A stretch of 40,121 bases of DNA from positions 1 through 40,121 of the forward strand of contig DUKS01000061.1 of NCBI GenBank assembly GCA_013329215.1, read 5' to 3'. Position 1 is the first letter of the stretch. The number at the start of each line of letters is the position of its first letter. The translations under genes and the position numbers were made by a program. Below the pieces are notes generated by a model that saw only the letters and a program-made list of their open reading frames with translations, did no database searches and had not been told where the DNA came from. The DNA is from Nanobdellota archaeon. Its GTDB lineage: Archaea; Nanobdellota; Nanobdellia; SCGC-AAA011-G17; GW2011-AR17. This document shows positions 3,126 to 35,144 of the stretch, piece by piece.

Positions 3126-3209
3126 GCAGGGGTGCCGGAGTGGTCAAACGGGATGGGCTTAGGACCCATTGGCTTAGTGCCTCCGCAGGTTCGAACCCTG
3201 TCCCCTGCA
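3126..3209 (+). tRNA. tRNA-Leu (UAG)
   Basis: GCAGGGG...CCCCTGC acceptor; anticodon arm ATGGG-CTTAGGA-CCCAT; long variable arm; GGTTCGAACCC T-arm. Confidence 0.95.
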
Positions 3210-3211
3210 TA
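3193..3211 (+). repeat. tRNA-Leu 3'-end direct repeat, copy 1 (19 bp GAACCCTGTCCCCTGCATA)
   Basis: Exact match to 3339-3357. Confidence 0.95.
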
Positions 3212-3294
3212 AGGGACTTCGTCCCTTATCAACCCTCTGCGGGTTGCTCATTGCATTCGCAACCCACATAGCGCCATCCGCATAGCGATGGCGC
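3209..3294. repeat. Cluster of three short palindromes
   Basis: ATAAGGGAC(3209-3217)/GTCCCTTAT(3221-3229); CAACCC(3230-3235)/GGGTTG(3241-3246); GCGCCATC(3271-3278)/GATGGCGC(3287-3294). Confidence 0.85.
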
Positions 3295-3338: not shown

Positions 3339-3357
3339 GAACCCTGTCCCCTGCATA
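3339..3357 (+). repeat. tRNA-Leu 3'-end direct repeat, copy 2
   Basis: Exact 19-bp match to the tRNA-Leu 3' end; preceded at 3310-3320 by GCAGGCTCGAA, a 10/11 match to the 5' half of the T-arm. Confidence 0.95.
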
Positions 3358-8805: not shown

Positions 8806-11800
8806 TCATCTGCTGCACCCGGCATATGCTGCATCAAACACCGCCGTTCCGATAGCTTCCTGCCCTGCCCTGTTCGGGTGCAGCTTGTCCGGGTTTGCGT
8901 ATTCATCTTTCATTGCATCTGGGTTTGCAGGGTCTTCAAGCGCGCTGTATACGTCAGCCCTTATGTCAACATCCTTTGCGCCGTTTACAGTATCCATTAT
9001 CCAGCTGTTTACTGCATCGTTCCTGTTCTGCAGCGGCGGCGTCCATTCCCTATAGCCCTTATACGGCGTTATTGTCAGGGCTATCACTCTCATTCCCGCC
9101 TGCTTTGCCATTGTATACATATCCTGCAGGTCTGCCTCAACAGCGTTTGCATTGTTGCCGTTATTGATGCCTCCCATTATTATCACTTCATCGAAACGAT
9201 GGCTGATTATGTCAGCCTGGAACCTGCTTTTAATCCTTGACGTTGTTTCACCGTTGACGCCGTAATTGTAAAAATCAAACTCTGTATTGCACTGCCTGTT
9301 TAAGTAGCATGCATAGCTGTTTGTGCCGTTTGTTATTGAGTCGCCGATTACCCCGACTTTCTTTGCGCTCGTATATGTAACGCCGCTGCAGCTTGCGCAT
9401 CTTGTGTTTGAAGTGCACATGCTGGCCGGAGATTGTGCATCTGCGCCTGGAGTTGCGGCTGCCGGAGCGTCTGTCCTTTCCGCGCATGCCCCGTCTTTCC
9501 ATTCGCAGTATAATCCTGCCCTTGCTGTGCATGCAACTGCCTTGCACATTGCTTCATCATTATTGAAGTCGCTGCATCTTTCTGTGCTTGCGCATGTGTA
9601 GCAACTATCTACGAATGTCCTTACCTGATAGTCTGTTCCAGGCACGCCTGCCGCGCCTTCCTTGTAATAGCATGGGCCAATCCCGTGGCATTCTGCGCTG
9701 TCGCAGCTATTAAATAAGCCTCCCCATGTGCCGCTTCCGCCGCACCCACGGCATCCTGTTGCTTCGGCAGCTTCCGCGCTTTGTGTAGCTGCCTGCGATG
9801 CTGCCCCTTCAGTGTCCCTTGGCGGATATACCCATATTTCAGGCTGCCACTTCCTGCTTTGCTTGTTGTTGGAATCACGGAACACTCCCATTTCGCTCTC
9901 TCCAACTCCGCCGTACATGTCAATCTTGCATCTTTCGTGGAAGCCCCCGCCTGTATCTTCTGCATAATACCAGCCGTTAAGGGGATTCCCATCATTGAAC
10001 TTTATGTACAGCAGCGAGCCGTAGGGTATGAAGCATTGTGACCCGTCATTAGGGTTTACTGCAATTGTCCTGTGGACATCAGGTTTTACGCCTGTTTTTG
10101 TATAACCGTGCTCATTTGCCGGTGTTTTTGGGGTGCCGCCCTCTCCCTTTCGTATCCCTATACCCTCCGCAGAATAAATTAAATTCTCGCACGCGCCGCT
10201 GCCCTCGCATTTAATCTCTTCGTAATATCCCCTGTCTGCAAGGGGCATTTTGCAGGGGGTTTCCCACCAGCACGCTTTCTTTTCGCCTAGGGCTGTGCAT
10301 TTTGTTTTACAGTATTTGTTGCTGCCTACTACTTTGCATAAATCAGCCCCGGTGCAATCGGTGTTGCTTGTGCATTCTTTGGGGTTTGTTGCCAGTATTG
10401 TTTCTGCGTTGTTCCAAAGCCCTGTATACCATTTTGTGCCGTCTGCCCATCCCGGCTTGTCTTTGCAGTCTGCTGTATAATAAACAGTAGCCGCAACCGC
10501 GCCTTCTGCAAATGTTGAAACCCCTTCCGGGGTGTTGCTTGGCGTGTCCTTTAAAACAATCTGCTTCATAATCCGCGTTTTAATAACATTATCAGCTGTT
10601 CCCGGTATGCTGCCCGGGTCAAAGTCCACATAATACCCATAATTTACCACATTGCCTGTTGTCCTCGCGCCGGGATTATCATAACCAATGCTCATTCCGG
10701 TTACAGGAGTGACTTTCGTGCCTGATGAGCTTGTCGGGTTGGCAACTGCCTGTGTTGCTCCTGCGCCAGCACTCGGCCTCTGTTCCATGCTTGCCTGGCA
10801 TGTCCCGCTTCTCCATTCGCAGTTCAGGCCTGCTTTTGATGTGCACTGCTGTGATTGGCATTTGTCGGGGTCGTCATTATAATCAGAGCACTTTGCGGCT
10901 ATTGCGCATGCATGGCATTCGTTTGCCACGTCTTCACTGGACCATATACCCGAAAGGGCCCCTTCTGTGAAAAAGCATGAAGAGCTTAATGCGCCGCACT
11001 CTTCCCTGTCGCACTGGTTGGTCGTGCCGTCGCCGCACCTTTGGCATCTTAATTCAACAACCCTGGAATCAGTCGCATCTTCACTTGCCTGGCCCTCGAA
11101 CCCTTCTGCTTCAAACGGCACTTCAAGGTTGTAATATCTTAAATAAATTGGGTCAAGCACTGTGCCGTATTTTGCCTGCGCAGCAGGCGAGTCCATTCCC
11201 TTAAGCGCGGTCAGGTTTGTTTTTGCAATGGAATATGTTTTGTTTAACTCCGCCCTGAACTCCCTGAAGAAGTCAGGCAGTGTTGCAGGGGTTATTTCAC
11301 TGCCCCGGAATGTTGGTATAATCTCATCCTGCAGCCTGATTGAGAAGTCTGCATGCACGCCCTCAAGTTCATATTCAAGCTGCTCCTTCAGCATCCTGAT
11401 TTCCCGTCTCAGGTCATATTTAGCGCATTTTTCAGCTGATGTTTCCATTAGCGTGCTGTACATATATTGCGATTCGGCCGCAACAGCAGGTGTTATTGTC
11501 CTAAGCTCAAGTATATGGTAAAGAGCCATTGCTTCTGTGATCTGGCCGCATTCTGTTTTCTCAAGCGCGTTAATCCTGTTAAGGTCTGACATGCTTGCAT
11601 TGTAGTCAAGAAGGCCTGTTATGCCAAGCTCTTCTTTCTGCTCCCTGAATCCGGCTTCATCAAGCGCCCTTGACACTTCTTCCATTCTCTCAGTGTCCCT
11701 TATGCTCACTGTAGTCATGTCAATCCAGCACTTGCCCAGGCTTCTTCCTGAGGAATCCTTTCCGCACGTGCCCACTTCTTTCCAGTCCAGCGAGTTTGTT

Positions 11801-14800
11801 CCCTGGCCGGGGTTCTGCGCAGAGCATACTCTCTGTATGCCTGACGATAATATCCCGCCGCTGCTCGGCATGGGCAGGCTGCCCAGCGAGGGGCTTGTTG
11901 TAGGGGCTGACGGGACGCATTCTTCCTCTGAGTTTATCTGCCTCTGCGCTTCATCTGAGACAATCAAGTCATTAAGGTAATTCAGGCCGAAGGATGTGGT
12001 CACTTTTCCAAATCCGCACTCTGTATTCCCGTTCAGGGTTATGCAGACCTGGTCAAACCCTTTTGGCGCGATGCAGTCAATGTTGTATGATGCAATGCCT
12101 CCCTTGTCTATGTGGCCCTGCCTGCCCTCGCACCTTTCTGTCACATATCTCGGGCTTTCGCCTGTGACTGAGTTTTTCAGGAACACCGAATATGTTGCTT
12201 CATTGTCTTCGCCTGCATATATATGGTAAAACACTTCATACCTTGATGTGCCCGTTGTTTCTGAGAATGATGTTTCTGTAAGCAATGCAGTGTACTGCGG
12301 CGGGCTTTCAGGCTGCGCAAGCTGGTCAAAGAATTCGCCGAGCGCAGGCACTTTCCCGAATATAGCCTGCTTGCACACTGTCGTCCCTATCTCTTCCATC
12401 GACCTGGACTGGTATGACGCAAACGCAGTCTGCGCATACTGGGTTGTGAAGAATGAAACAGAGTCTGCCACGTTCTGCAGGCTTGACTCAAAAGTCATGT
12501 ATTCTCCGCCTCCTTCCTGCTGGCCGAAGAATGTCTGTGAAATCCAGTTGAATATTCCTCCCCTGATATTGAATATTGCTATTGCCTCTTTCCAGAGCAG
12601 TTCGCATATAAATACAGACCTGATTTTATCGCAGATGCCAACCGACTGGCCGCTTATCTGGGCTGTCTTCAGGCATTCCACATACCCGCGCAGCACTGAT
12701 TTAATGTTCTGCAGCCCTGCAAGCACGCCTGTAAGGCATATCGGCACCGGCTCATACGGTATGTCAAAGTTCGGAAGACCAAGCACCATTGAGCCGATAA
12801 GGCCTGTCTGCACAACATCGTTAACCTGCCATGTCCCGCCAAGGTTGAACCTTGACGCAGGGCACATCACCGGGTCGCAAACGCCAAACAGCAGCCTGCA
12901 GTCGTCCGGGTCCATTGTGTCGTAGCAGTTTGGCTGGCTTCTTGAGTTGTCTGACTGCGCCCTTGAAGTGCTTACTGCAAACTGCCTGCCGGATGCGCTT
13001 ATCATCTGCCCTTCTGAGCGCGTCCCTACCCTGCTTGCTGTTTCAATCAGGCTCCTCTGTATGGATTCTGAGTCAGACCGTTCAAGCATGCTCTGGTGCC
13101 TCACAAGCACGTCATCCGCAGTGCACAGCAGGCCGTCAGTCCCGACATTCCATTCCTGTATTACGCTCGGGCTTCCGTCCATGTAGAAGTCAAGCACTTT
13201 AACATAATTGCCGTTTGTTGTCGGTATGCAGTAAGGCTTTCCGTCCGGATAGAATTCAGCTGTTGCTGATTGCGCATAATTATCATTTGTCTGGCCTGTT
13301 GCGTATGCAGCTGTCATCGCGACAAAGAAGTTGTTGCTTCCGTCCACAAACACCTGTCCCTGGTTTGTGCTTAGCGGCGCCGCGGGATTTTCCTGGTAAA
13401 CAACCCTTACTCTTTCCAGCTCAGCCGCAATTTCCTTTTGCCTTTCTGCATCATTGCTTGCAGCCGCGGTTGCATTTTCCAATGTTAAGCGCGCCACATA
13501 ATTCTCAACAGTTGCTTCGGCCAGCCCGACCCTCCCGATAGGGGTGTTTGAGTAAAACTCATTGTTTTCTCTCCTGACTGTTGCAAGCGGCACCAGGCCT
13601 ATTGATTCTATCAATGGGAAGTCATTTGAGTTTGTATCCGGATTCGCGAGGCTTGATTGATAAAGGTCAGAGAATACCTGCCTCTTTTCGTCTTCAGGCA
13701 GCTTGTCGAAGTCCGGGTAAGTTGCCTGTATTGCGCCTACAGCCTCGTTGTAAGCAGTTGTCCTGCCGCTGTTTTCAAGGTTGAATGAACCCAGGTTTCT
13801 GTCAACTTCGCGCCTTAAGTCATAGCCTGTTTCATCGCTTCCCCCGTTTAGCTGCGTGTATGCACTTGACTGCCTCATAAGCTGCCAATACCTATAGTCC
13901 CTGAGCTGCTGCTCGTCGAACAGGTCTTCGCCTATATAATCCCCGTATTTGCTTATGTTGCTGTAGTTTGATGCAAGCTGCCTGTACCATGCCTGGCCCC
14001 TGTAATTTTCCATGTCGTCATTTGCTTTTTCCACTGCTTTCTGCGAAGCGTCTATAGTGGTGTCAATGGATGCGGAGTTTTCTGCTATGCATTTATCATA
14101 ACTGCCATACTGCCTGTCATCCCCGCTGTTAGCCCTGCAGTATGCGTCCCATCCGCTTCTGCCGTCAATGCCGTGCATTGCAAACTGCCTTGCCTGCGTC
14201 CTTGACAGCCCCATGAAAAACGAGTTCTTTATTGTAAGGAAAAGGAATGTGCCGAGGCACACTTTTTTCCAGACAGTCACGACATCTGTAAGCTCGTTTA
14301 TTACATCATCAAGGTCCTTGATTATTTCCTGCGTGTCATTTATCTGGCTTCCTATTTCGTCAGGCGTAAGGCTTATCAGCCTTTTTTCTATCGGGATATG
14401 GACTGTGAAGTTTGTTTCGCTTACGAGGGGCGCGCCCGTGCCGGGTATAATTGTCACGATTGCGTATTTTTTCAGGTCCACTGATTTCAGCATTACTGTG
14501 TGCCCGTCCAGGGTGATGCTTTCCCTTATTGAAAGCACTCTTGTTGTCCTGTATGCCTCCGGAGGTGTTGCCCTGTATGTTTTTTCTATTACGACTGAAT
14601 CAGCGCTCATGCTTTTGACATTCCAGTTGTAGTTTCTTGCAACGCCGTCAGGCCCTGTTTCCACAAAGTCGTTTGCGAATATGCTTTTTCCTGCCGGTAT
14701 GCTTTTTGTCCCTTCCTGCTCGACCTGCAGTGTGGCTGTCGGCCTGCTTGCCTGGTCCTGCCACAGGATGTTCATCAGCTTAACCCTTACTGCTGCGCCG

Positions 14801-17800
14801 TTCTCCTCAAACTCGCCTATTGTGAACCTTGCGTGGTCCAGCGCATCAGCCTCAAGCTCGTCTATCCTCGCCCTTGCTTCAGGTATGAAGCTGCCCTTGT
14901 TATTTCTTATCGATTTCTTGTAGTATTCAAGCGCTTTCTCAGAATCTCCGAGCCAATAATATATATTGCCCAGCTTGAAATAGGCCTTGTCTTCGTACAA
15001 AATGCCCTGGCTGTCTTCTATGCCGAAATACTGCTGCGCAAGCCTTTCGTACTCTTTTGCGGCTGTACAGTATACCATTTCCTGCGTTGCGCTCTTTATT
15101 GTTGCAAGCCACTGCTCCGGGCTGTCTGATTCCCTGAGTATTATTTCCTTGCCTTCGCATATGCTGCTGGCTGTCCTTATTTCTGTGCAGCTTGTCCTGC
15201 AGGCCCCGCCTGCCTGTGAACATGTCTTTTGCGCTGGGGCAGCGGCCTGTTGTGCAGGTACAGCCTGTGTTACTTCGGCAGCTGCTGCCACAGGCTCAGG
15301 CTCTTTTGGCTTGCAGCAGAATGTAGGCACGAATCCGCCCAGTGCGGTTACATCCATCGGCACACATTGCGCGGACTGCTGGAGCATGTATGTTTCGCCT
15401 GCGCCTGTATTGCAGGCTGTTTTGCACTGCCATGCATCATCCGGCCCGCACTTGTTTTGTTCCTGCAGCTTCAGCGTTGACACCATCCTGTCTCTCAATC
15501 CTTCAGGGTAGCAGAACTTGTTTCCGTTATATGCCCCCCCGCTTGCGCTGCCGCATTCAAACGCCCCCTGCCTTGATGTTTGGGTGATTGAAACCTGTGC
15601 ACCAGCTGCCGGGGTTATGCAGCACTGCTGTGATGCTCCGCACTCAGTGGCAGGCAGCAGCGCATCTGTACCGCATTCAGCTGCGCAATTTCCTTCAAAT
15701 CCGTATGCTGTGCAGCTTTCCTTTTGGCAGCACTTGTTTCCTGCGCCACACTCTGAGTCATAGCGTGTTAGCGCACTATATCCTGCGCCGCAACTCCCTG
15801 CCTTGCAGGACCCCATATCCTCAGGCCCGCAGTTTCCAGGCGGCGTGCAGCACTTCTTGCCCGGCCCGCACACCACATTATTTTCAGCAACCTCTGTGTA
15901 TCCGCCTGGGCAGCTGCCTTCAACGCACACATTGCCTCCATGAGCGCTTGAGCCGCAGGTTTCTGCCGGCTCGCAGCACGAGAACCTGGATTCTCCGGAG
16001 CTGCTTGTTATAGTGCATTCGCTTTCGTGCTCGAAATCAGGGATAGGGAAAGTATATGAGCATACTGACCTGCATATGCCTTTGCCTGAATCGCATGTTT
16101 TTTCCCTTGCGCAGCATTTTCTGTTTCCGCACTCAATGTTGAAAAGCGGAAGCTCAATCTCTTCGGGGCCGCAGCTGTCCCTGCAGTCATAAGTGTTTCC
16201 TGCGCATTTTTCAGGCCTGCAGCACTTTGACAGCAGACCGCATTCGCTGTCATACCTGCCCTGGCTGCTGTATGAGGGAGCAGTGCATGATGTAAGGCAG
16301 CTGTATGCATCATTCGGCCCGCAGGTCTTTGTTTTGCAGCATATGTTCTTGCTGTTTAATTCGCTGCACACATCATTATTTGCAGAAACTGCTTCTTTTG
16401 AGGCGTCGTCACAGCTTGCAGAACACATTGCCCCGCTTCCTGCATCGCAAATAATGCTTTGGGCAGTCCCCTTGCAGCATTTCCACCATGAAGCTGGATT
16501 TGAGAGGCATTTTCCGGCAGTGAATGATATTTCTGTCCTGCCCAACCCTGACACTGACATGCAGGCATTTACCCTCGTATCGGCGCATGTGCCGCCCATG
16601 GCTGCGCACGGCGTGTCATCCCGCGGCGCTGCTGTAACCAGGGCTTCGGTGCTTACTGCGCTTTCTCTTTCCTGTGCAGCTGCTACTTCCCCGTCTGTTT
16701 CAAGCAGCGCTGTTTTTCCGCAGCATGATTTTCCTCCATCGCATGTGCCTTCAAGCGCAGGATAGTTTACTTCATATTGGAATGCGCCCGTTGTCGCTTC
16801 CGCGGTTCCGGCCTGCCTTTCATCCTGCGTAGCTCCCCTTATCGCGCCAGCGGCGGAATCGCTTACAAGCCCGACTGCCGATGCGATTGTTTCGCCTGCC
16901 CTTTCAATGAAGCTCTTTGAAACTTTTGTCTGGTCCCTTGGCCCCCTTATGACCAGCTCATATGTGATTTTTTTGCCCTGCCTTATTGTGTTTATTTCCT
17001 GGACAACAAGCTCAGAACCAGGGTAAAGCTTTGAGCCTTCTGTGACAACATACTCCCTTTCCTCTCCATTAACATTAACCCTTATCCTTGCCCTGTGCTG
17101 TGACGGCTCTATTATGTCGCTGAGCTTGACACGGAATGCATTTGTCATCAGGTCTGTTGCAGTGCTGAGCCTGATGGGATCTGAAGTTTCGCCTTTCGCC
17201 AGCTCAATGTCTTCAAGGGGCCTTGGAGTTCCTGTAAAAGGCCACTGCAGGTCCTGCCCTCCGTATACGGTAAGCTTTGCACTGTCTTCTGTGATTTCGC
17301 TTGCCCTGACCGCGCCCCTGCCTGAGAAGAATTTGTACTCATCAAGCGGCTTGCTTCGCCATGCAGACTCATCGCGGTCCTCCGGGATGACAAGGTCCTG
17401 CTCTATCATGCTGTAAAGCCTGTCTGCATTTTCAAAAGTTATCTCGGCTTTCATGTTCAGGTTAATCTCATCAGGCACATCCGCTTCCTTCTCAATCTGC
17501 TTCAGCGTGATGATAAGATAGCCAAGGTTGTCCATTGAATACTCTCTTGGCTCGACAACATTGGGGTTGCCCCTGACATAGCTCATTGTCTCTTCGTCAA
17601 GCGGCCTTGTGTAGAACCGCTTTATCTTAACCCCTGTGCCGTACAGCGGCTCTGCAGTTGAACTGCTTCCGATAATGCTTCCCGGGCTTGTGCCTGTAAG
17701 GAAAACATAGACAGGCACGTCGCCGTCTTCTATTACGCCTGCAGGCAGAATGGCAGGCTCGTATCCCTTTACATTAACAAGTATTGATTCTCCTGTGGCC

Positions 17801-17922
17801 TCTTCCTTTGCTTCCTGCTCCCAGTCAAAGATTGCCGCGGAAAACGGCGTTGTTATTATAATCATTGAAAGAACCAGCCCAATCACCGCGTTCCATTTCA
17901 TGATTCTCTTCTTGCTTGCCAT
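8806..17922 (-). CDS. Giant (3038 aa) exported cysteine-rich multidomain protein with 3D-like and C-terminal SGNH/GDSL hydrolase-like domains
   Basis: Uninterrupted 9.1-kb ORF; N-terminal hydrophobic signal/anchor; repeated CGPxDxxxC...CGxxxxCC modules; TPR-like YFKLGNIYYWLGDSEKALEYYKKSI; TIAVNP...IPYGSLLYI...YYAEDTGGGF...CKIDMYGG; GVIGDSITNG...VNGETT...IIMGGINNG...DKLHPN. Confidence 0.85.
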   Translation of the reverse strand: MASKKRIMKWNAVIGLVLSMIIITTPFSAAIFDWEQEAKEEATGESILVNVKGYEPAILPAGVIEDGDVPVYVFLTGTSPGSIIGSSSTAEPLYGTGVKIKRFYTRPLDEETMSYVRGNPNVVEPREYSMDNLGYLIITLKQIEKEADVPDEINLNMKAEITFENADRLYSMIEQDLVIPEDRDESAWRSKPLDEYKFFSGRGAVRASEITEDSAKLTVYGGQDLQWPFTGTPRPLEDIELAKGETSDPIRLSTATDLMTNAFRVKLSDIIEPSQHRARIRVNVNGEEREYVVTEGSKLYPGSELVVQEINTIRQGKKITYELVIRGPRDQTKVSKSFIERAGETIASAVGLVSDSAAGAIRGATQDERQAGTAEATTGAFQYEVNYPALEGTCDGGKSCCGKTALLETDGEVAAAQERESAVSTEALVTAAPRDDTPCAAMGGTCADTRVNACMSVSGLGRTEISFTAGKCLSNPASWWKCCKGTAQSIICDAGSGAMCSASCDDASKEAVSANNDVCSELNSKNICCKTKTCGPNDAYSCLTSCTAPSYSSQGRYDSECGLLSKCCRPEKCAGNTYDCRDSCGPEEIELPLFNIECGNRKCCAREKTCDSGKGICRSVCSYTFPIPDFEHESECTITSSSGESRFSCCEPAETCGSSAHGGNVCVEGSCPGGYTEVAENNVVCGPGKKCCTPPGNCGPEDMGSCKAGSCGAGYSALTRYDSECGAGNKCCQKESCTAYGFEGNCAAECGTDALLPATECGASQQCCITPAAGAQVSITQTSRQGAFECGSASGGAYNGNKFCYPEGLRDRMVSTLKLQEQNKCGPDDAWQCKTACNTGAGETYMLQQSAQCVPMDVTALGGFVPTFCCKPKEPEPVAAAAEVTQAVPAQQAAAPAQKTCSQAGGACRTSCTEIRTASSICEGKEIILRESDSPEQWLATIKSATQEMVYCTAAKEYERLAQQYFGIEDSQGILYEDKAYFKLGNIYYWLGDSEKALEYYKKSIRNNKGSFIPEARARIDELEADALDHARFTIGEFEENGAAVRVKLMNILWQDQASRPTATLQVEQEGTKSIPAGKSIFANDFVETGPDGVARNYNWNVKSMSADSVVIEKTYRATPPEAYRTTRVLSIRESITLDGHTVMLKSVDLKKYAIVTIIPGTGAPLVSETNFTVHIPIEKRLISLTPDEIGSQINDTQEIIKDLDDVINELTDVVTVWKKVCLGTFLFLTIKNSFFMGLSRTQARQFAMHGIDGRSGWDAYCRANSGDDRQYGSYDKCIAENSASIDTTIDASQKAVEKANDDMENYRGQAWYRQLASNYSNISKYGDYIGEDLFDEQQLRDYRYWQLMRQSSAYTQLNGGSDETGYDLRREVDRNLGSFNLENSGRTTAYNEAVGAIQATYPDFDKLPEDEKRQVFSDLYQSSLANPDTNSNDFPLIESIGLVPLATVRRENNEFYSNTPIGRVGLAEATVENYVARLTLENATAAASNDAERQKEIAAELERVRVVYQENPAAPLSTNQGQVFVDGSNNFFVAMTAAYATGQTNDNYAQSATAEFYPDGKPYCIPTTNGNYVKVLDFYMDGSPSVIQEWNVGTDGLLCTADDVLVRHQSMLERSDSESIQRSLIETASRVGTRSEGQMISASGRQFAVSTSRAQSDNSRSQPNCYDTMDPDDCRLLFGVCDPVMCPASRFNLGGTWQVNDVVQTGLIGSMVLGLPNFDIPYEPVPICLTGVLAGLQNIKSVLRGYVECLKTAQISGQSVGICDKIRSVFICELLWKEAIAIFNIRGGIFNWISQTFFGQQEGGGEYMTFESSLQNVADSVSFFTTQYAQTAFASYQSRSMEEIGTTVCKQAIFGKVPALGEFFDQLAQPESPPQYTALLTETSFSETTGTSRYEVFYHIYAGEDNEATYSVFLKNSVTGESPRYVTERCEGRQGHIDKGGIASYNIDCIAPKGFDQVCITLNGNTECGFGKVTTSFGLNYLNDLIVSDEAQRQINSEEECVPSAPTTSPSLGSLPMPSSGGILSSGIQRVCSAQNPGQGTNSLDWKEVGTCGKDSSGRSLGKCWIDMTTVSIRDTERMEEVSRALDEAGFREQKEELGITGLLDYNASMSDLNRINALEKTECGQITEAMALYHILELRTITPAVAAESQYMYSTLMETSAEKCAKYDLRREIRMLKEQLEYELEGVHADFSIRLQDEIIPTFRGSEITPATLPDFFREFRAELNKTYSIAKTNLTALKGMDSPAAQAKYGTVLDPIYLRYYNLEVPFEAEGFEGQASEDATDSRVVELRCQRCGDGTTNQCDREECGALSSSCFFTEGALSGIWSSEDVANECHACAIAAKCSDYNDDPDKCQSQQCTSKAGLNCEWRSGTCQASMEQRPSAGAGATQAVANPTSSSGTKVTPVTGMSIGYDNPGARTTGNVVNYGYYVDFDPGSIPGTADNVIKTRIMKQIVLKDTPSNTPEGVSTFAEGAVAATVYYTADCKDKPGWADGTKWYTGLWNNAETILATNPKECTSNTDCTGADLCKVVGSNKYCKTKCTALGEKKACWWETPCKMPLADRGYYEEIKCEGSGACENLIYSAEGIGIRKGEGGTPKTPANEHGYTKTGVKPDVHRTIAVNPNDGSQCFIPYGSLLYIKFNDGNPLNGWYYAEDTGGGFHERCKIDMYGGVGESEMGVFRDSNNKQSRKWQPEIWVYPPRDTEGAASQAATQSAEAAEATGCRGCGGSGTWGGLFNSCDSAECHGIGPCYYKEGAAGVPGTDYQVRTFVDSCYTCASTERCSDFNNDEAMCKAVACTARAGLYCEWKDGACAERTDAPAAATPGADAQSPASMCTSNTRCASCSGVTYTSAKKVGVIGDSITNGTNSYACYLNRQCNTEFDFYNYGVNGETTSRIKSRFQADIISHRFDEVIIMGGINNGNNANAVEADLQDMYTMAKQAGMRVIALTITPYKGYREWTPPLQNRNDAVNSWIMDTVNGAKDVDIRADVYSALEDPANPDAMKDEYANPDKLHPNRAGQEAIGTAVFDAAYAGCSR

Positions 17923-19909: not shown

Positions 19910-19985
19910 ACTATTTGGAAGTATTAGGGTTTTATAAATGTTCCGAGGTTTGTCGTCGTGAAAAAGTATTACGGTAAAATAAAAG

Positions 19986-20015
19986 TGAATGGACCCAGCC
20001 AGATTCGAACTGGCG
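19986..20015 (-). repeat. Partial tRNA-Val (T-arm plus 3' acceptor strand) remnant; att-like 30-bp direct repeat
   Basis: TGAATGGACCCAGCCAGATTCGAACTGGCG is identical to 21191-21220 (3' end of tRNA-Val-CAC); no GGACCCA 5' acceptor partner found on the 5' side of the remnant. Confidence 0.9.
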
Positions 20016-20101
20016 GCCTGCCCCGCTGAGGAGCATGCGCTATTTCTGCCAGCGTATCTGCTAAAAACACTTCAATGGTTATAGGAAATCCCAAGCAAAA
20101 C

Positions 20102-21136
20102 TTACCTTGCTATCGCATCCAGCGAATTTTTGCCCCAATCCAAATCAGGGTTTGTATAATCAATCTCCCCGCCTTTGATGTAGGGGAGAATTTCAAATAT
20201 GCCGAAGTGCGCTATCTCCTCAATCTTCGGGCGCCTGCATTTCAGCATATAGCTGCCAAAGGAAACAGCTTCCTTGTCAGTGAGCAGCGAAGTTAGAAAC
20301 ACCGGTTCAACTCCGCCAAAATAGTCGCTGCCTGCAAAGTAATCGCAAATCCCGTGTATTATCTGCTCCTGAAGCGAGGTGTCAATATGCGCATAAACAT
20401 CTTTATACATAAACTGCCTTGCCTTTTCAAACTCTTCAAACATTTCGCCTTCGCTGAAGGAAACAAATCCTTTTCTTTTGCTTTCCTCAACAAGCGCGCT
20501 TACAAGGTTATTGACTCTCTTCCTTTGGTTTCTCCCCAGCTTTTTTGTCTTTTCCAGGACTGTTTCCCTGTCTATGTAGCCGTATCTTACTGCATCATCG
20601 GGGTCCGAAACTGTATAAGCTATTTTATCGGCAAAAAGCACTGCATTGTATTCCTGCGGAAGGCCCGGGTCTATGCTGAGCTCGCCGGAGCCCCTTGAAT
20701 GGTTAATCCCGCCTTCAAGTGTTTCATACGACAGGTTGAGCCCTTTGCCTTTTCTTTCGATGTGCTGCGCAATGACAACGCTGTTGACCTCGTGCCTGAA
20801 TGGCTTGCCTCCGATTTTTGTTAATGTCTGTTCGCCTATATGCCCGAATGGCGTATGCCCTATATCATGCACAGCCGCGATTGCCATGCATAAATAAGGG
20901 TTTAAGCCCAGCTGTGTTGCGATTGCCAGTGCGATTGAAACTACTTCCTCGGTGTGGACTAATCTTGTCCTCATGTGCGGGTTGTCAGGCAGGGAAACTA
21001 CCTGCGTTTTAAACGCAAGCCTCCTGTACGCCTTTGATTGTATTATCTTTGTATAGTCATTAAGAAACGGGTCTGCTATTAATGTGTCCTCTTTTTCTTC
21101 ATACCGCCTTCCCTTTGATATGAGATAAGGTTTCAT
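20102..21136 (-). CDS. HD-domain phosphohydrolase, dGTPase (Dgt)-like
   Basis: 344 aa; YRRLAFKTQV...RTRLVHTEEVVSIA...AAVHDIGHTPFGHIGE HD signature. Confidence 0.92.
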   Translation of the reverse strand: MKPYLISKGRRYEEKEDTLIADPFLNDYTKIIQSKAYRRLAFKTQVVSLPDNPHMRTRLVHTEEVVSIALAIATQLGLNPYLCMAIAAVHDIGHTPFGHIGEQTLTKIGGKPFRHEVNSVVIAQHIERKGKGLNLSYETLEGGINHSRGSGELSIDPGLPQEYNAVLFADKIAYTVSDPDDAVRYGYIDRETVLEKTKKLGRNQRKRVNNLVSALVEESKRKGFVSFSEGEMFEEFEKARQFMYKDVYAHIDTSLQEQIIHGICDYFAGSDYFGGVEPVFLTSLLTDKEAVSFGSYMLKCRRPKIEEIAHFGIFEILPYIKGGEIDYTNPDLDWGKNSLDAIAR

Positions 21137-21190
21137 AAACCGCAGGTAGCATATTGGCTTATATAAGCCTTTTTATTCTTTTCAGAAAAA

Positions 21191-21220
21191 TGAATGGACC
21201 CAGCCAGATTCGAACTGGCG
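21191..21220 (-). repeat. 30-bp direct repeat, copy within and flanking the tRNA-Val(CAC) 3' end
   Basis: Identical to 19986-20015. Confidence 0.95.
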
Positions 21221-21267
21221 ACCTTCTCCCTGTGAAGGAGACGTCATAGCCGCTAGACTATGGGTCC
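21195..21267 (-). tRNA. tRNA-Val (CAC)
   Basis: GGACCCA...TGGGTCCA; anticodon arm TCTCC-TTCACAG-GGAGA; T-arm GCCAG-TTCGAAT-CTGGC. Confidence 0.93.
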
Positions 21268-21291
21268 GTGAAAATTATTTGGGATTATGAA

Positions 21292-21364
21292 TGGACCCGG
21301 AGTGATTCGAACACTCGACCTTCTCCCTGTCAAGGAGACGTCATAGCCGCTAGACTACGGGTCC
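21292..21364 (-). tRNA. tRNA-Val (GAC)
   Basis: GGACCCG...CGGGTCCA; anticodon arm TCTCC-TTGACAG-GGAGA; T-arm GAGTG-TTCGAAT-CACTC. Confidence 0.93.
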
Positions 21365-21394
21365 ATAATATAAAGCCAAGTTCCCTGAAATTCC

Positions 21395-21490
21395 CAGAGG
21401 GGTTGAAATCACTCGCGTGATTAACCCCTCTGCGACTTCGTATTCGAAACGCCTCATGCGTTTCGGATATCCGAGAATCTCTGATTCTCG
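21395..21490. repeat. Three consecutive perfect hairpins 3' of tRNA-Thr
   Basis: CAGAGGGGTT(21395-21404)/AACCCCTCTG(21423-21432) with nested AATCAC/GTGATT; CGAAACGC(21445-21452)/GCGTTTCG(21458-21465); CGAGAATC(21472-21479)/GATTCTCG(21483-21490). Confidence 0.9.
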
Positions 21491-21502
21491 AATACTTCGC
21501 TC

Positions 21503-21574
21503 AGCCCCAGAGGGGAGTTGAACCCCCGACCTGCTGATTACAAGTCAGCCGCGCTACCACTGCGCTACTGGGGC
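21503..21574 (-). tRNA. tRNA-Thr (UGU)
   Basis: GCCCCAG...CTGGGGC; anticodon arm GCTGA-CTTGTAA-TCAGC; GGGTTCAACTCCC T-arm. Confidence 0.94.
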
Positions 21575-30195: not shown

Positions 30196-30702
30196 ATGCA
30201 GAAAAGAGGGCAGGTTACAATATTCGTTATTCTCGGGATTATACTTGTTGCGGCGATTATAGTCGGAATTGTTTTGAGGAAGGATATTGTGAGCGCAGTG
30301 AGCAGGTCTGAAACAACCACAGCTGCGTCATTCCAGGAGCAGGCAGAGGAAGTTAAGGCGCATGTGGAAGAGTGCCTGACTGATGCGCTAAAGGAAGCTG
30401 TTTTCCATTCTATTATAGGCTCTTCTACCAGTCTGACGCAGGAAATGTATTATGAGCAGGTTAGTCTTTTCATTAAAGACCAGCTCAATGCATGTATTGA
30501 TTTTACACTGTTCCCGAATTTATATATTACAAGGGGCGGGCAGACAGAGGTAAGGGTCTATGGAGATTCAAAAGAACCTCCTACAAAAATACAGGCTGAT
30601 TTGAAAATGAGGGTTGACATAACACGCGGCGAGGACCATGCTTCATTTGATGAACTAACGGGCACAATACCTTTAAAATCAAGGGCGGAGTTGGCACAAT
30701 GA
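30196..30702 (+). CDS. Exported protein with class III/pilin-like N-terminus (MQKRGQVTIFVILGIILVAAIIVGIVL)
   Basis: Same N-terminal pattern as 17933-19909; ATG 30196 gives the same MQKRGQV start (GTG 30190 is an alternative). Confidence 0.75.
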   Translation: MQKRGQVTIFVILGIILVAAIIVGIVLRKDIVSAVSRSETTTAASFQEQAEEVKAHVEECLTDALKEAVFHSIIGSSTSLTQEMYYEQVSLFIKDQLNACIDFTLFPNLYITRGGQTEVRVYGDSKEPPTKIQADLKMRVDITRGEDHASFDELTGTIPLKSRAELAQ

Positions 30703-33700
30703 GCATAAAACAGACCTTACAGCTTGCTGTGTTTATAATTTTAATTTTGGTTTTTTCTTCAATAGCTTTAGCGGTTGACGGCGTAAGCATTTATGAGGCA
30801 ACATTTATACCTAGCTGTAGCGCAGCAGGATTTGAAGATTGTGAAATCGTACTCGGCGGTTTCGCTTTTAAAATAGACACAATAGAAGGCGAAACAATAA
30901 CTGATGAGTTGCACCTGTTTCCCGGGGATTTTACTTCGGAAATCTCTTCATATGAACGTGAAAGCATACATTGCGATAATCCCCAGCAGATAGCTGTTGC
31001 CAAATATGATGAAACCGAGGACAAATGGGTTCTTCTTGCGCCTGAGAGGCAACAGCCTCCTGAGCCGGATACTGCAAGGCTTGGTGCTTACAAGATAAGG
31101 GCATACATTGGCGAGCCCGGCATTTATGCGGTTGTGCAAAGGACGCAAGAAATTGTTTCAGATATTGATAAAGAGGCGGGGCTTTACTGCAATCGGCGGG
31201 TTTGCGGTATATACAGGGGATTTGAATCAGACCCGGAAAGCGGAAATGTGCAGATTAATGCTCAGATAAATCTTTCTTTCTGCAATATAGTCATGGGCTG
31301 TGATGCCACTGATGATGAAATATGCAGTGAGGCTTGCCTACAGGGTACAGACCCCCAGTGCGGAACATGCTATGCTACTGCCGAAGGCGGTGACTGCTGT
31401 AAACCGTTTGGGGAAGATGGCGCGCCTGACGGAATTTGCGATGGTGACTGTTGGACTGTCACTGATGAAAACGGTATTGTAAAGGACAGCACAGACCCGG
31501 ATTGTGTTGCAGCTGTTGAGCTCTATGAGCAGCCTGAAGATGACAACATGATGTTGTTCGGCCACAAATTTGAGCCGGATCTTGCAGAAGAACGGCTGAT
31601 AATATGGAATATTGAAGAAGATCTTGGTTATCCTGTATTGCTGGAAGGGGGGTTTACTTTAATGGCCTCAGGGGCGTCTGTGCCGGGCACATTATTCTTG
31701 TACGACATGGAAGGCGGAATGCATAGTGTATTGGCAAATAGGCTGAGCCTTCCTTTCCCGCCAATGGGGATTAAAGCTATAGGCGTTAGCACCAAAAAAA
31801 CGGGTTCAGGCGCTGAACATTTTATAAACGTATCATTACGTGTCCATAAGGACAAGGACACTGATGAACCGCAAAACGCAGACCCAGACCTGGACAATTC
31901 TACAAATTATGAAGACTGCCATGACACAAACCCCTATATTCATCCTGGCGCAACAGAAATTGAAAATGGCATTGACGATGACTGTGACTCATACGGGCAT
32001 TATTCACCAGTAACACATGCGTTTGAAACAAACATAGGGGTAAGCAGTTCCGAGGGCTGTTTGGCCTGGCTTGCCTGCGGTTCTGGTGTTGCAATCAGTA
32101 CGCGTATGTATCAAATGCCTTGCACAGGGCATATTGAGTTTACCGCAATAGATTCAACTTCTTATGCTGAGGTTTGGAGGCAGCAACAATGCACGGAGTG
32201 CACAGAGAGTGCCTGTCCTGGCGGATCCAAATTCGTAAACGACCAGTACGGTGTAAAGGCAAGGTATTGCTTGGATAGAATGGACTACGGCCCGTGGCAC
32301 ACATATCAGGCGCTTTTTGCGTATGGCTTTGAAACAGACGGGTTTGACTGCAGCAATAGCTGTGCACCGAAGTCTGTAGCTTCCTGCAGAGCTGAGATTG
32401 GCTCATGTTCAGGAGCTTCGTTTATTGGGTCTGAATCAAGATTCAATGGTTGGGACATGAGCGGCTACAGTTATGCAAAAGACGAGTGCTTTGCAGAAGA
32501 TTCCGATTATGATTGTGATTGGTCATGGAACGATGAGGGCCCTATTTCTGCTTCATGGCTAAGGGATGAGATAAATTCCCCACAAAATCAGGTTCCTTTA
32601 GCAAGGGGGGATGTTGTGTATATAGCAGCGACCGGGCCTAATACATGCACAAGCGACTGTGATTACGGTGTTGTAAGGTTTGATGTTTATTGCAATGAGC
32701 CAATCCCCCCAAAAGATGTTCCTAACACTGTGGATGAAGGTATAACCGTCGGAGAGAAAAAGCCGCTTGTAGTACATCTCTGCAAGACTGATAACTTTAA
32801 TGACTTTGCAAAAGAATGCGTGGACGGTGAATATTGCAGCTTTGAAACCGAAACAGAATCCGGCAGTTGTGATTACACAGAGGAAACAGATATAGGCATT
32901 AAACCATTTTTTGCGTATTCCTGCAGGTCAGATGGGGAATGTTTCTCATTCTACGCAGATAATTTTCATGTCTGCGCCGAAAAAGAGCAATGCTCACGCG
33001 CTGAGGGAGGCGCAAGCGAATTCCAGAACGAGGATTTGGACTGCGACGGCCTAACGCCTTATGAGTTTGTGAAAGATGAAAGCGGCGCAGATACAGGCGT
33101 GATTGATTATACAACGCCGAAAGACCCGGACTGCAGGGACTTCTGCGTGCACGGCCAATGCAGGGTGCAGGACCATACATGGTGCGATACGAGCCAGGGA
33201 ACCCCGAACTGGACCACTTCAAGCTACTGCTCAATGTGCAGCTCGCAGGACTCAACATGCGCAGGAAGCGTCTGCGCTGAAGGAGAGAAATCATGCGGCG
33301 CAGGCTGCAGGCAGGATGCGTGCGACACAGCCGCAAACAAGTGGTGCAATAACGGCGTTTGGGTTGCAAATGAATACTGCGCGAAATGCGGCATGCTTGA
33401 CGCTGACGGGATATGCGTGCAATCATGCACAACCGCGTCATGCGACACAGAATACAATAAGACCTGCAGAAGCATTGGAAGCAGGCTGTTGTGGGTTGAG
33501 AGCTACCGTGACACCCCTTATTGTGAAACAGCTTCCTGCACAGGCAGGGACAGCTCATGCGCAGGAACATGCACTGCAGGAAACTGCGATATTTACAGCA
33601 ACAAATACTGCACTTCATCAGGAACATGGAGCGATGCAAATTACTGCGCTGAATGCGGCGCGATAGACTCAGGCTGCGGCACAGGGCCCTGCGCTGATAC

Positions 33701-35144
33701 TACAGGCGGCAGCCCAACTTGTGACATTTACGCCCACAAAGTCTGCCTCGGCGGGGTATGGAAGGCTTCAACAGAAGGCCCCGACTATTGCACTAACTGC
33801 GCTGACAGGGACCAGACTTTCTGCACAGCCGAGTGCGGTGATGAAGACACCGAAACAAACTGCTCAAACAGCATTGATGACAACTGCGACGGCCTGACAG
33901 ACTGCCAGGACAATGCAGCCTGCGGCTCTTCGCCATATTGCGCAGAACCGCCCTGCCCCCCATTCTCAACAGACAACTGCGGCCTTGACAGCCCGCCTTC
34001 ATGCATTGCAGGCACAAGAACCTGCGGCGTTGACGGCAAATGGGGAGCTTGCAGCACTGCAGACTCAATTGAAACAGAAGTGTGCAATGGGCTTGACGAT
34101 GACTGCGATGGCTCAACAGATGAAGGGTGCGTATGCCGGGATGGCGAATCAAAAGTGTGCGGTGAAGACAGGGGCGCATGCTCGTCAGGGGTCCAGAGGT
34201 GCACAGGCGGCCAGTGGGGCACCTGCTACAGGAGCTCGCGCTCAATTGCAAGAAATGAAATATGCAACGACGGAATTGACAATGACTGCGACGGCAAGAT
34301 AGATGAGAATTGCCCGTGCGTTACAGGCGCAAACCAGTCTTGCGGCGAGGCCGTTGGCATATGCAAGCAGGGAAAGCAGGTATGCACAAATGCCAAGTGG
34401 GGGGAATGCGCAGGGCAGGTTGGCAAGCTGGTTGAAAATTCAAATACAGGCGGCATATGCTCTGACGGGATTGATAATGACTGCGATGGCAATGTAGACG
34501 CTGCTGATGACGGATGCGCTGTCACAAGGGTCGCGGATATGGCTGCATCATGCTTTGACTTTAAGCAGAACGCCGATGAGACAGGCATGGACTGCGGGGG
34601 GTCAAAATGCTCATCATGCGAAGGCGCAACATGCAATGACAAAAAGGTAAACGGCGATGAGACTGGAAAAGACTGCGGAGGCTCTTGCCCGCCGTGCGCT
34701 GATGCAAGGATGAATGTCAGGGAAGGACCGGGGACGGAAGGGGCAGTAGAGGAAACAGAGGCAATAGGGGAATGCGGCGATGGTTCGTGTGATGCTAATG
34801 AGGACTCAGAAACCTGCCCTGACGACTGCGCTGCAGAGCCTGCAACTGTATTCAGCTTTGGCACAATAATGATAATCGTAATCATCCTCGGCGTGATCGG
34901 GGGAGGATATTTGGCTTACAAGAAAGGGTTAATCAAGATAAAAGGAAAAGCGCCTGCAAAAGAAGCATTCCCTGCGCCTAAAGGCGCTTCAGGCGCACAG
35001 CCTTCTTCACAGTTCAGGCAGCCACAGTACAAGCCTGTGCAGCCCTCTGTTGCAGGTAAAGCGCCAAGGAAAGAGCTTAAGACGAAGGAAGAGCTTGAGC
35101 TTGAAAGGTCCATGAAGGAAGAGAAAGAGCTTCTTAAGAAATAA
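30699..35144 (+). CDS. Large (1481 aa) Cys-rich surface protein with MopE-like metal-binding motifs and C-terminal TM
   Basis: Signal peptide; CxxxxCDxxxNKxC repeats; CNGLDDDCDGSTDEGC, CNDGIDNDCDGKIDENC, CSDGIDNDCDGNVDA; TM FGTIMIIVIILGVIGGGYLAY and a basic tail. ATGA overlap with the upstream CDS. Confidence 0.85.
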   Translation: MSIKQTLQLAVFIILILVFSSIALAVDGVSIYEATFIPSCSAAGFEDCEIVLGGFAFKIDTIEGETITDELHLFPGDFTSEISSYERESIHCDNPQQIAVAKYDETEDKWVLLAPERQQPPEPDTARLGAYKIRAYIGEPGIYAVVQRTQEIVSDIDKEAGLYCNRRVCGIYRGFESDPESGNVQINAQINLSFCNIVMGCDATDDEICSEACLQGTDPQCGTCYATAEGGDCCKPFGEDGAPDGICDGDCWTVTDENGIVKDSTDPDCVAAVELYEQPEDDNMMLFGHKFEPDLAEERLIIWNIEEDLGYPVLLEGGFTLMASGASVPGTLFLYDMEGGMHSVLANRLSLPFPPMGIKAIGVSTKKTGSGAEHFINVSLRVHKDKDTDEPQNADPDLDNSTNYEDCHDTNPYIHPGATEIENGIDDDCDSYGHYSPVTHAFETNIGVSSSEGCLAWLACGSGVAISTRMYQMPCTGHIEFTAIDSTSYAEVWRQQQCTECTESACPGGSKFVNDQYGVKARYCLDRMDYGPWHTYQALFAYGFETDGFDCSNSCAPKSVASCRAEIGSCSGASFIGSESRFNGWDMSGYSYAKDECFAEDSDYDCDWSWNDEGPISASWLRDEINSPQNQVPLARGDVVYIAATGPNTCTSDCDYGVVRFDVYCNEPIPPKDVPNTVDEGITVGEKKPLVVHLCKTDNFNDFAKECVDGEYCSFETETESGSCDYTEETDIGIKPFFAYSCRSDGECFSFYADNFHVCAEKEQCSRAEGGASEFQNEDLDCDGLTPYEFVKDESGADTGVIDYTTPKDPDCRDFCVHGQCRVQDHTWCDTSQGTPNWTTSSYCSMCSSQDSTCAGSVCAEGEKSCGAGCRQDACDTAANKWCNNGVWVANEYCAKCGMLDADGICVQSCTTASCDTEYNKTCRSIGSRLLWVESYRDTPYCETASCTGRDSSCAGTCTAGNCDIYSNKYCTSSGTWSDANYCAECGAIDSGCGTGPCADTTGGSPTCDIYAHKVCLGGVWKASTEGPDYCTNCADRDQTFCTAECGDEDTETNCSNSIDDNCDGLTDCQDNAACGSSPYCAEPPCPPFSTDNCGLDSPPSCIAGTRTCGVDGKWGACSTADSIETEVCNGLDDDCDGSTDEGCVCRDGESKVCGEDRGACSSGVQRCTGGQWGTCYRSSRSIARNEICNDGIDNDCDGKIDENCPCVTGANQSCGEAVGICKQGKQVCTNAKWGECAGQVGKLVENSNTGGICSDGIDNDCDGNVDAADDGCAVTRVADMAASCFDFKQNADETGMDCGGSKCSSCEGATCNDKKVNGDETGKDCGGSCPPCADARMNVREGPGTEGAVEETEAIGECGDGSCDANEDSETCPDDCAAEPATVFSFGTIMIIVIILGVIGGGYLAYKKGLIKIKGKAPAKEAFPAPKGASGAQPSSQFRQPQYKPVQPSVAGKAPRKELKTKEELELERSMKEEKELLKK

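Follow-up and report, generated by a model that had tools for sequence, protein, structure and literature searches.

Displaced tRNA 3' ends and a probable two-hairpin repeat relic beside an HD phosphohydrolase gene in a Nanobdellota archaeon

How did the 3' end of a tRNA-Val gene come to stand twice in the same genome, with a single dGTPase-like gene between the two copies? The arrangement occurs in a stretch of 40,121 nucleotides (the window; contig DUKS01000061.1, positions 1 to 40,121) from Nanobdellota archaeon assembly GCA_013329215.1, the source genome (G000), which we compared with three congeners, G001, G002 and G003 (the last being JAHJRD01, 'Nanoarchaeota archaeon'). The original prediction, made from the letters alone, had the form of an integration into a tRNA 3' end by a minimal element carrying the HD gene. 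We favor, with a probability of about 0.52, the reading that the repeat is the footprint of a genus-wide type of insertion at the 3' end of tRNA-Val(CAC), with the HD gene as its cargo or as a passenger.

The repeat pair and the gene between its copies

The 30-bp sequence TGAATGGACCCAGCCAGATTCGAACTGGCG is present in two exact copies, at 19,986-20,015 and 21,191-21,220, where shuffled sequences gave an expectation of 0 such pairs, and both copies of the predicted perfect direct repeat were thus recovered. The genome-wide check for other tRNA-Val 3'-end copies, run on the 24-nt core of TGAATGGACCCAGCCAGATTCGAACTGGCG, found no others in the 1.42-Mb, 67-contig genome G000 with up to 3 mismatches allowed. 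Ungapped extension lengthened the repeat to 44 nt with 91% identity (19,981-20,024 against 21,186-21,229, both on the minus strand), covering tRNA-Val(CAC) from the trailer to the anticodon stem, beyond which homology falls off sharply; an anchored extension into the tRNA body was weakly above shuffles (14/1000). The copies are in direct orientation, the proximal one being the 3' part, with trailer, of an intact tRNA-Val(CAC) gene (21,195-21,267, minus strand; Rfam RF00005, 63.7 bits), and the distal one a displaced tRNA end. Two further tRNA genes, tRNA-Val(GAC) at 21,291-21,365 and tRNA-Thr(TGT) at 21,503-21,574, lie on the same strand. A direct repeat of a tRNA 3' end beside an intact proximal tRNA is the configuration of tRNA-targeted islands.

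Inspection of the open reading frames bore out that the HD gene (20,102-21,136, minus strand, 344 aa) is the sole credible gene between the copies and that no integrase lies there; no Cas1-type casposase gene was found in this segment, six-frame translations of the junctions held nothing convincing by eye as SSV-type integrase remnants, and the repeat core, the HD protein and the motif of the dispersed element described below had no match in viral contigs. The proposed search for a tyrosine recombinase succeeded at the level of the genome, with three in G000, but none on this contig; two of the three are XerA-like, one above the curated cut-off and one slightly under it, and one XerA-like recombinase adjoins the EF-2 gene. 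A tyrosine recombinase of 578 aa with a C-terminal zinc-ribbon is encoded on contig C1 of G000 (L128:7457-9193).

The HD gene is predicted to encode a complete dGTPase-like dNTP triphosphohydrolase. The protein matches PF01966 (40.8 bits, cut-off 22), the PADLOC dGTPase model (136 bits, residues 13-146) and PDB 2dqb (3e-29), and the catalytic H, HD and D motifs are conserved in the alignment. It shares the HD domain, these motifs and its PDB and NCBIfam similarity with known enzymes of the type (2dqb, PRK01286 and anti-phage dGTPase), from which it differs as a short form that falls under the NCBIfam cut-offs, its best match being NF002327 (the PRK01286 model; 210.9 bits, cut-off 393), with TIGR01353 at 123.8 bits (cut-off 152.35); an antiviral role is putative. 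Its promoter region (21,137-21,185, minus strand), with the TATA-like TTATATAA at 21,159-21,166, has a homologous counterpart in G003. Among 60 near relatives, the gene was found, besides its own genome, only in the congener G003 (80% identity), and across the phylum in 19 of 371 genomes, with about nine close homologues scattered over distant families and none of the homologues elsewhere flanked by tRNA repeats. The gene has the distribution of one that spreads horizontally. The suggested gene tree resolved only the pair from G000 and G003 and the distant f42 pair, but no donor branch.

The locus in congeneric genomes

The flanking genes are common to all four congeneric genomes. In the proposed comparison with empty sites, both the HD gene and a stray tRNA end were absent from G001 and G002, but there the Thr-Val-Val tRNA cluster has the opposite orientation to its neighbors (L089 and L090 against window 21,195-21,574), and G003 has the HD gene without the distal copy. 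In G007, another member of the family, tRNA-Val(GAC) and tRNA-Thr are oriented as in G000. The order of the flanking gene, HD gene and tRNA-Val in G003 is that of G000, and the HD gene is at the orthologous position.

In place of the distal copy, G003 has a different copy of the tRNA-Val 3' end, beginning ATGGGCCCAGCC, between the HD promoter and the tRNA. The DNA alignment of the two genomes is unbroken through the HD gene, its promoter and the tRNA 3' end (76.6% over 1084 nt), and because of this continuity the tRNA remnant in G003 occupies the place of the intact tRNA in G000. There, the HD promoter joins tRNA-Val directly, whereas the layout in G003 is a tRNA 3'-end copy, a structured element, 45 nt and the tRNA. 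By this alignment, an insertion has displaced the tRNA of G003, and G000 represents the empty site for it. The tRNA-Thr(TGT) gene of G003 (L091:2601-2696) has a 24-nt intron in the anticodon loop, which is missing in G000-G002.

The two-hairpin element and its flanking duplications

The stretch inserted in G003 is one copy of a dispersed repeat, the two-hairpin (TH) element, whose copies fold as two hairpins (e.g. AAACTG-CAGA-CAGTTT, followed by GATCATCA and then by GCGGGC..GCCCAC). When 21 copies were aligned by fitting to a model, 96.6% of the cells paired and 11 of the 15 pairs changed on both sides, with 36 cells showing both-side changes against 8.0 in shuffles; the picture from nine copies aligned with MAFFT agreed with this. 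Covariance searches found 9, 5, 3 and 13 copies in G000, G001, G002 and G003, respectively, and none in 12 other genomes of the family and order. As 0.8 Mb from outgroups likewise gave no significant match, the element is restricted to the genus. Examples are C65:18029-18094, C7:3003-3067 and C60:7272-7336 in G000, C5:21431-21495 in G003, C132:12019-12077 in G002 and C30:60406-60456 in G001. Rfam had no matching family, and a literature search of open-access papers returned no description of a repeat of this type.

Comparison of the left and right flanks of 27 usable copies revealed direct repeats (score of at least 12, 12-45 nt) around 14 of them, as against 1.2% of permuted pairings. The left repeat copy usually abuts the TH element or a nested hairpin insert, while the right copy starts 1-110 nt past the element, usually at an ORF or tRNA terminus. 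In G002, for instance, a 485-aa ORF has 42 exact bp of its 3' end repeated, and in G000 tRNA-Pro has 17 bp of its 5' end duplicated. A symmetrical insertion model does not account for this left/right polarity. A second dispersed repeat, TATTCGAAAnnnTTTCGGATATCCGAnnnTCGAATA, seen in the window at 21,431-21,502, has two inner hairpins with variable arms and many copies in the four congeners, some of them nested in TH elements.

A TH-like stretch beside the distal copy

The tRNA-Val(CAC) locus shares with TH insertions a flanking repeat at the end of a gene and an intact gene on the right. Immediately beyond the distal copy, the stretch at 20,026-20,075 (plus strand), running from GGAGCATGCGC to GCGTATCTGCTAAAAACACTTCAA, aligns to the right half of the TH copy G002:C132. 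Among 2964 random window segments, 6 reached its top score and 1 the sum of its top five scores, and the similarity has a p of about 0.0003-0.002 over a short stretch. Neither TH covariance model matched it, and because it is not recognized by these models it is probably a TH relic at best, the degraded right half of an element. Its orientation and position fit other TH insertions, but the distance from it to the right repeat copy is about 1.1 kb, with the HD gene inside, against 1-110 nt at the other repeat-flanked TH loci. Other candidates for the region between distal copy and HD gene were discarded: as another dispersed repeat, it gave weak BLAST matches only; an exact 15-mer in G002 falls in histone-like coding sequence and was ascribed to chance; and similarity to the tRNA-tail elements considered next was weaker, with 213 of 1943 random segments reaching the top score.

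Displaced 3' ends at other tRNA genes

Displaced tRNA ends are not peculiar to this locus. In G000, 14 of 36 tRNA genes have a copy of their own 3' end (score of at least 11) within 250 nt downstream, against 0.66% of permuted pairs in the same test. Such tails were also found at 3 of 11 sampled tRNAs of G001 and at 6 of 13 loci of G002 and G003 (a biased sample), and at none of 24 in two outgroup genomes. The duplicates in G000 measure 11-21 nt, many of them 13-18 nt, and many begin at the 3' strand of the T-stem, forming the 3' arm of a hairpin with a complementary 5' arm; a stem score of at least 9 was reached in 8 of 13 tails when paired with their own arm and in 6 of 156 pairings with other arms. 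Structured tails occur in G000 at the tRNA loci L008, L012, L013, L015, L017, L020, L022, L024, L030, L033, L035 and L211, and tRNA-Met has two in tandem. The window holds a second direct repeat of a tRNA end, in which the 3' end of tRNA-Leu(TAG) (3,193-3,211, plus strand) recurs as a displaced 19-nt copy (3,339-3,357, plus strand), with TH-like hairpins between the copies that scored weakly, at 12.7-16.4 bits (3,218-3,268). The displaced copy is missing in the G003 orthologue, which is an empty site for this tail.

Alternative explanations

Neither ARAGORN nor Rfam detected a tRNA at the distal copy. The T-arm is intact in this copy, as would suit a functional half of a split tRNA, a tRNA with an intron or some other functional RNA resembling a tRNA, and in intron mode ARAGORN called a 'tRNA-Ala(ggc)' across it; that call was regarded as spurious because its model runs into HD codons, its variable loop is abnormally long and a normal tRNA-Ala(GGC) is present on contig C26. 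The copy is on a par with shuffles in its folding (z -0.14 to -0.24), is absent from G003 and has no 5' acceptor partner nearby. A split tRNA, which the original prediction had already ranked as the less likely alternative, was rejected on the lack of a nearby 5' half and on the complete set of Val isoacceptors (CAC, GAC and TAC) in G000, and a functional RNA of any of these kinds is most improbable.

The main rival is a decayed classical island, in which tyrosine recombination would have brought a virus or plasmid into the tRNA-Val(CAC) 3' end and everything but the HD gene and the displaced att copy would since have been lost. The extent of the 44-nt repeat, from anticodon stem to trailer, is that of known archaeal tRNA islands (PMC9897764), and the reconstituted tRNA beside the element, the horizontal distribution of the HD gene and the presence of tyrosine recombinases in G000 would all suit such an origin. 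We nevertheless consider it rather unlikely, given that the 1.2 kb contain no integrase, att partner or other mobile gene, that the three recombinases, two of them XerA-like, are on other contigs, that tRNA and gene ends are found displaced throughout the genus where there is no island, and that both repeat core and HD protein are missing from viral contigs. More doubtful still is a local rearrangement, in which the stray tRNA 3' end would be a leftover of a partial tRNA duplication, of slippage or of the cluster inversion that separates G001/G002 from G000/G003, and the HD gene would have arrived independently. The inverted three-tRNA cluster in G001 and G002 and the two near-identical tRNA-Val genes side by side speak for it; against it, the repeat is direct rather than inverted, its homology ends sharply after 44 nt, the scores for continuing into the tRNA body exceed those of shuffles only slightly, and many tRNAs with structured inserts show this architecture too.

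Proposed origin of the repeat

In the favored reading, an insertion at the 3' end of tRNA-Val(CAC) would have spared the tRNA itself, with 44 bp of the tRNA end left as a copy 1.2 kb away. This insertion would belong to a genus-wide class in which a small structured element adjoins a directly repeated gene or tRNA end and has the intact gene to its right. The structured element at this locus would probably be the degraded TH at about 20,026-20,075, and the HD gene, acquired horizontally, would lie between it and the intact tRNA, either as cargo that entered with the relic or as a later passenger. In G003, the distal copy would afterwards have been lost and a separate TH insertion gained at this tRNA end. 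Counting against a TH-type insertion are the position of the HD gene outside the duplicated boundaries in G003 and the fact that tRNA repeats of 44 bp are typical of classical integrase islands of archaea as well (PMC9897764). What survives of the original prediction is the form of a tRNA 3'-end integration, with tRNA-end direct repeats, an insertion-like segment and a sporadic gene; the repeat and HD gene as a discrete mobile unit do not, as the gene of G003 stands in this position with no distal copy, and displaced gene and tRNA ends recur genus-wide without the gene.

The duplications may represent target-site duplications of a mobile element. That they lie at gene ends and range from 12 to 45 bp speaks against a fixed-stagger transposase and suggests a widely staggered cut or target-primed copying, the latter of which would explain the variable lengths. 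We propose, as a tentative generalization that may well prove wrong, that the genus is host to a class of very small, structured and non-autonomous mobile elements not described before, comprising TH and tRNA tails, which insert into tRNA and protein genes at their ends, preserve the gene by duplicating 12-45 bp of its end and are able to carry a gene such as HD, with the terminal hairpin of the tails matching the acceptor/T-stem of the preceding tRNA. If the genus-wide pattern holds, an insertion process in small-genome archaea targets gene ends, above all tRNA 3' ends, and would be harmless to its target because the gene end is duplicated. It would then bear on the origin of tRNA 3' ends as integration hot-spots (for integrases, casposons and the roots of CRISPR adaptation) and on how reduced DPANN genomes acquire single genes when no integrase is involved. 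With stems that follow the neighboring tRNA, the tRNA tails pose a directly testable question of RNA processing.

Comparison with known elements

Classical integrase islands leave the same kind of tRNA fragments, as in the tRNA-integrated island PYG1 of Pyrococcus yayanosii, which has 44-bp tRNA-Gln repeats (PMC9897764). As here, such islands have an intact tRNA on one side, a displaced 3' fragment on the other and horizontal content (PMC9897764), but they span about 9-23 kb against 1.2 kb with no integrase at tRNA-Val(CAC), which is moreover one of many displaced ends in the genus, most of them around small hairpin elements. The nearest working analogy for the tRNA tails is provided by the casposons, whose Cas1-type casposase gives 14-15-bp target duplications at tRNA 3' termini or at the 3' ends of protein genes, for example at tRNA-Pro in A. 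boonei and tRNA-Leu in M. mazei (PMC6977970, PMC6614799). The 13-18 nt of many tails and the frequent position of TH duplications over ORF 3' ends resemble casposon targets; the inserts here are 30-160 bp, however, without genes or recognized terminal inverted repeats, and the duplications depart from 14-15 bp, with 44 bp at tRNA-Val, 11-21 nt at the other tails and up to 45 bp around TH elements. TH elements are also like MITE or REP-type non-autonomous repeats in being short, dispersed, hairpin-forming and non-coding, with nested copies, but differ from these in their variable duplications of up to 45 bp and in their conserved unpaired strands, the stems varying by covariation.

Other open reading frames in the window

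Two giant ORFs were noted in the window. One (8,806-17,922) encodes 3038 aa with a C-terminal GDSL lipase domain and a TPR motif, and the other (30,699-35,144) encodes 1481 aa with MopE-type metal-binding motifs.
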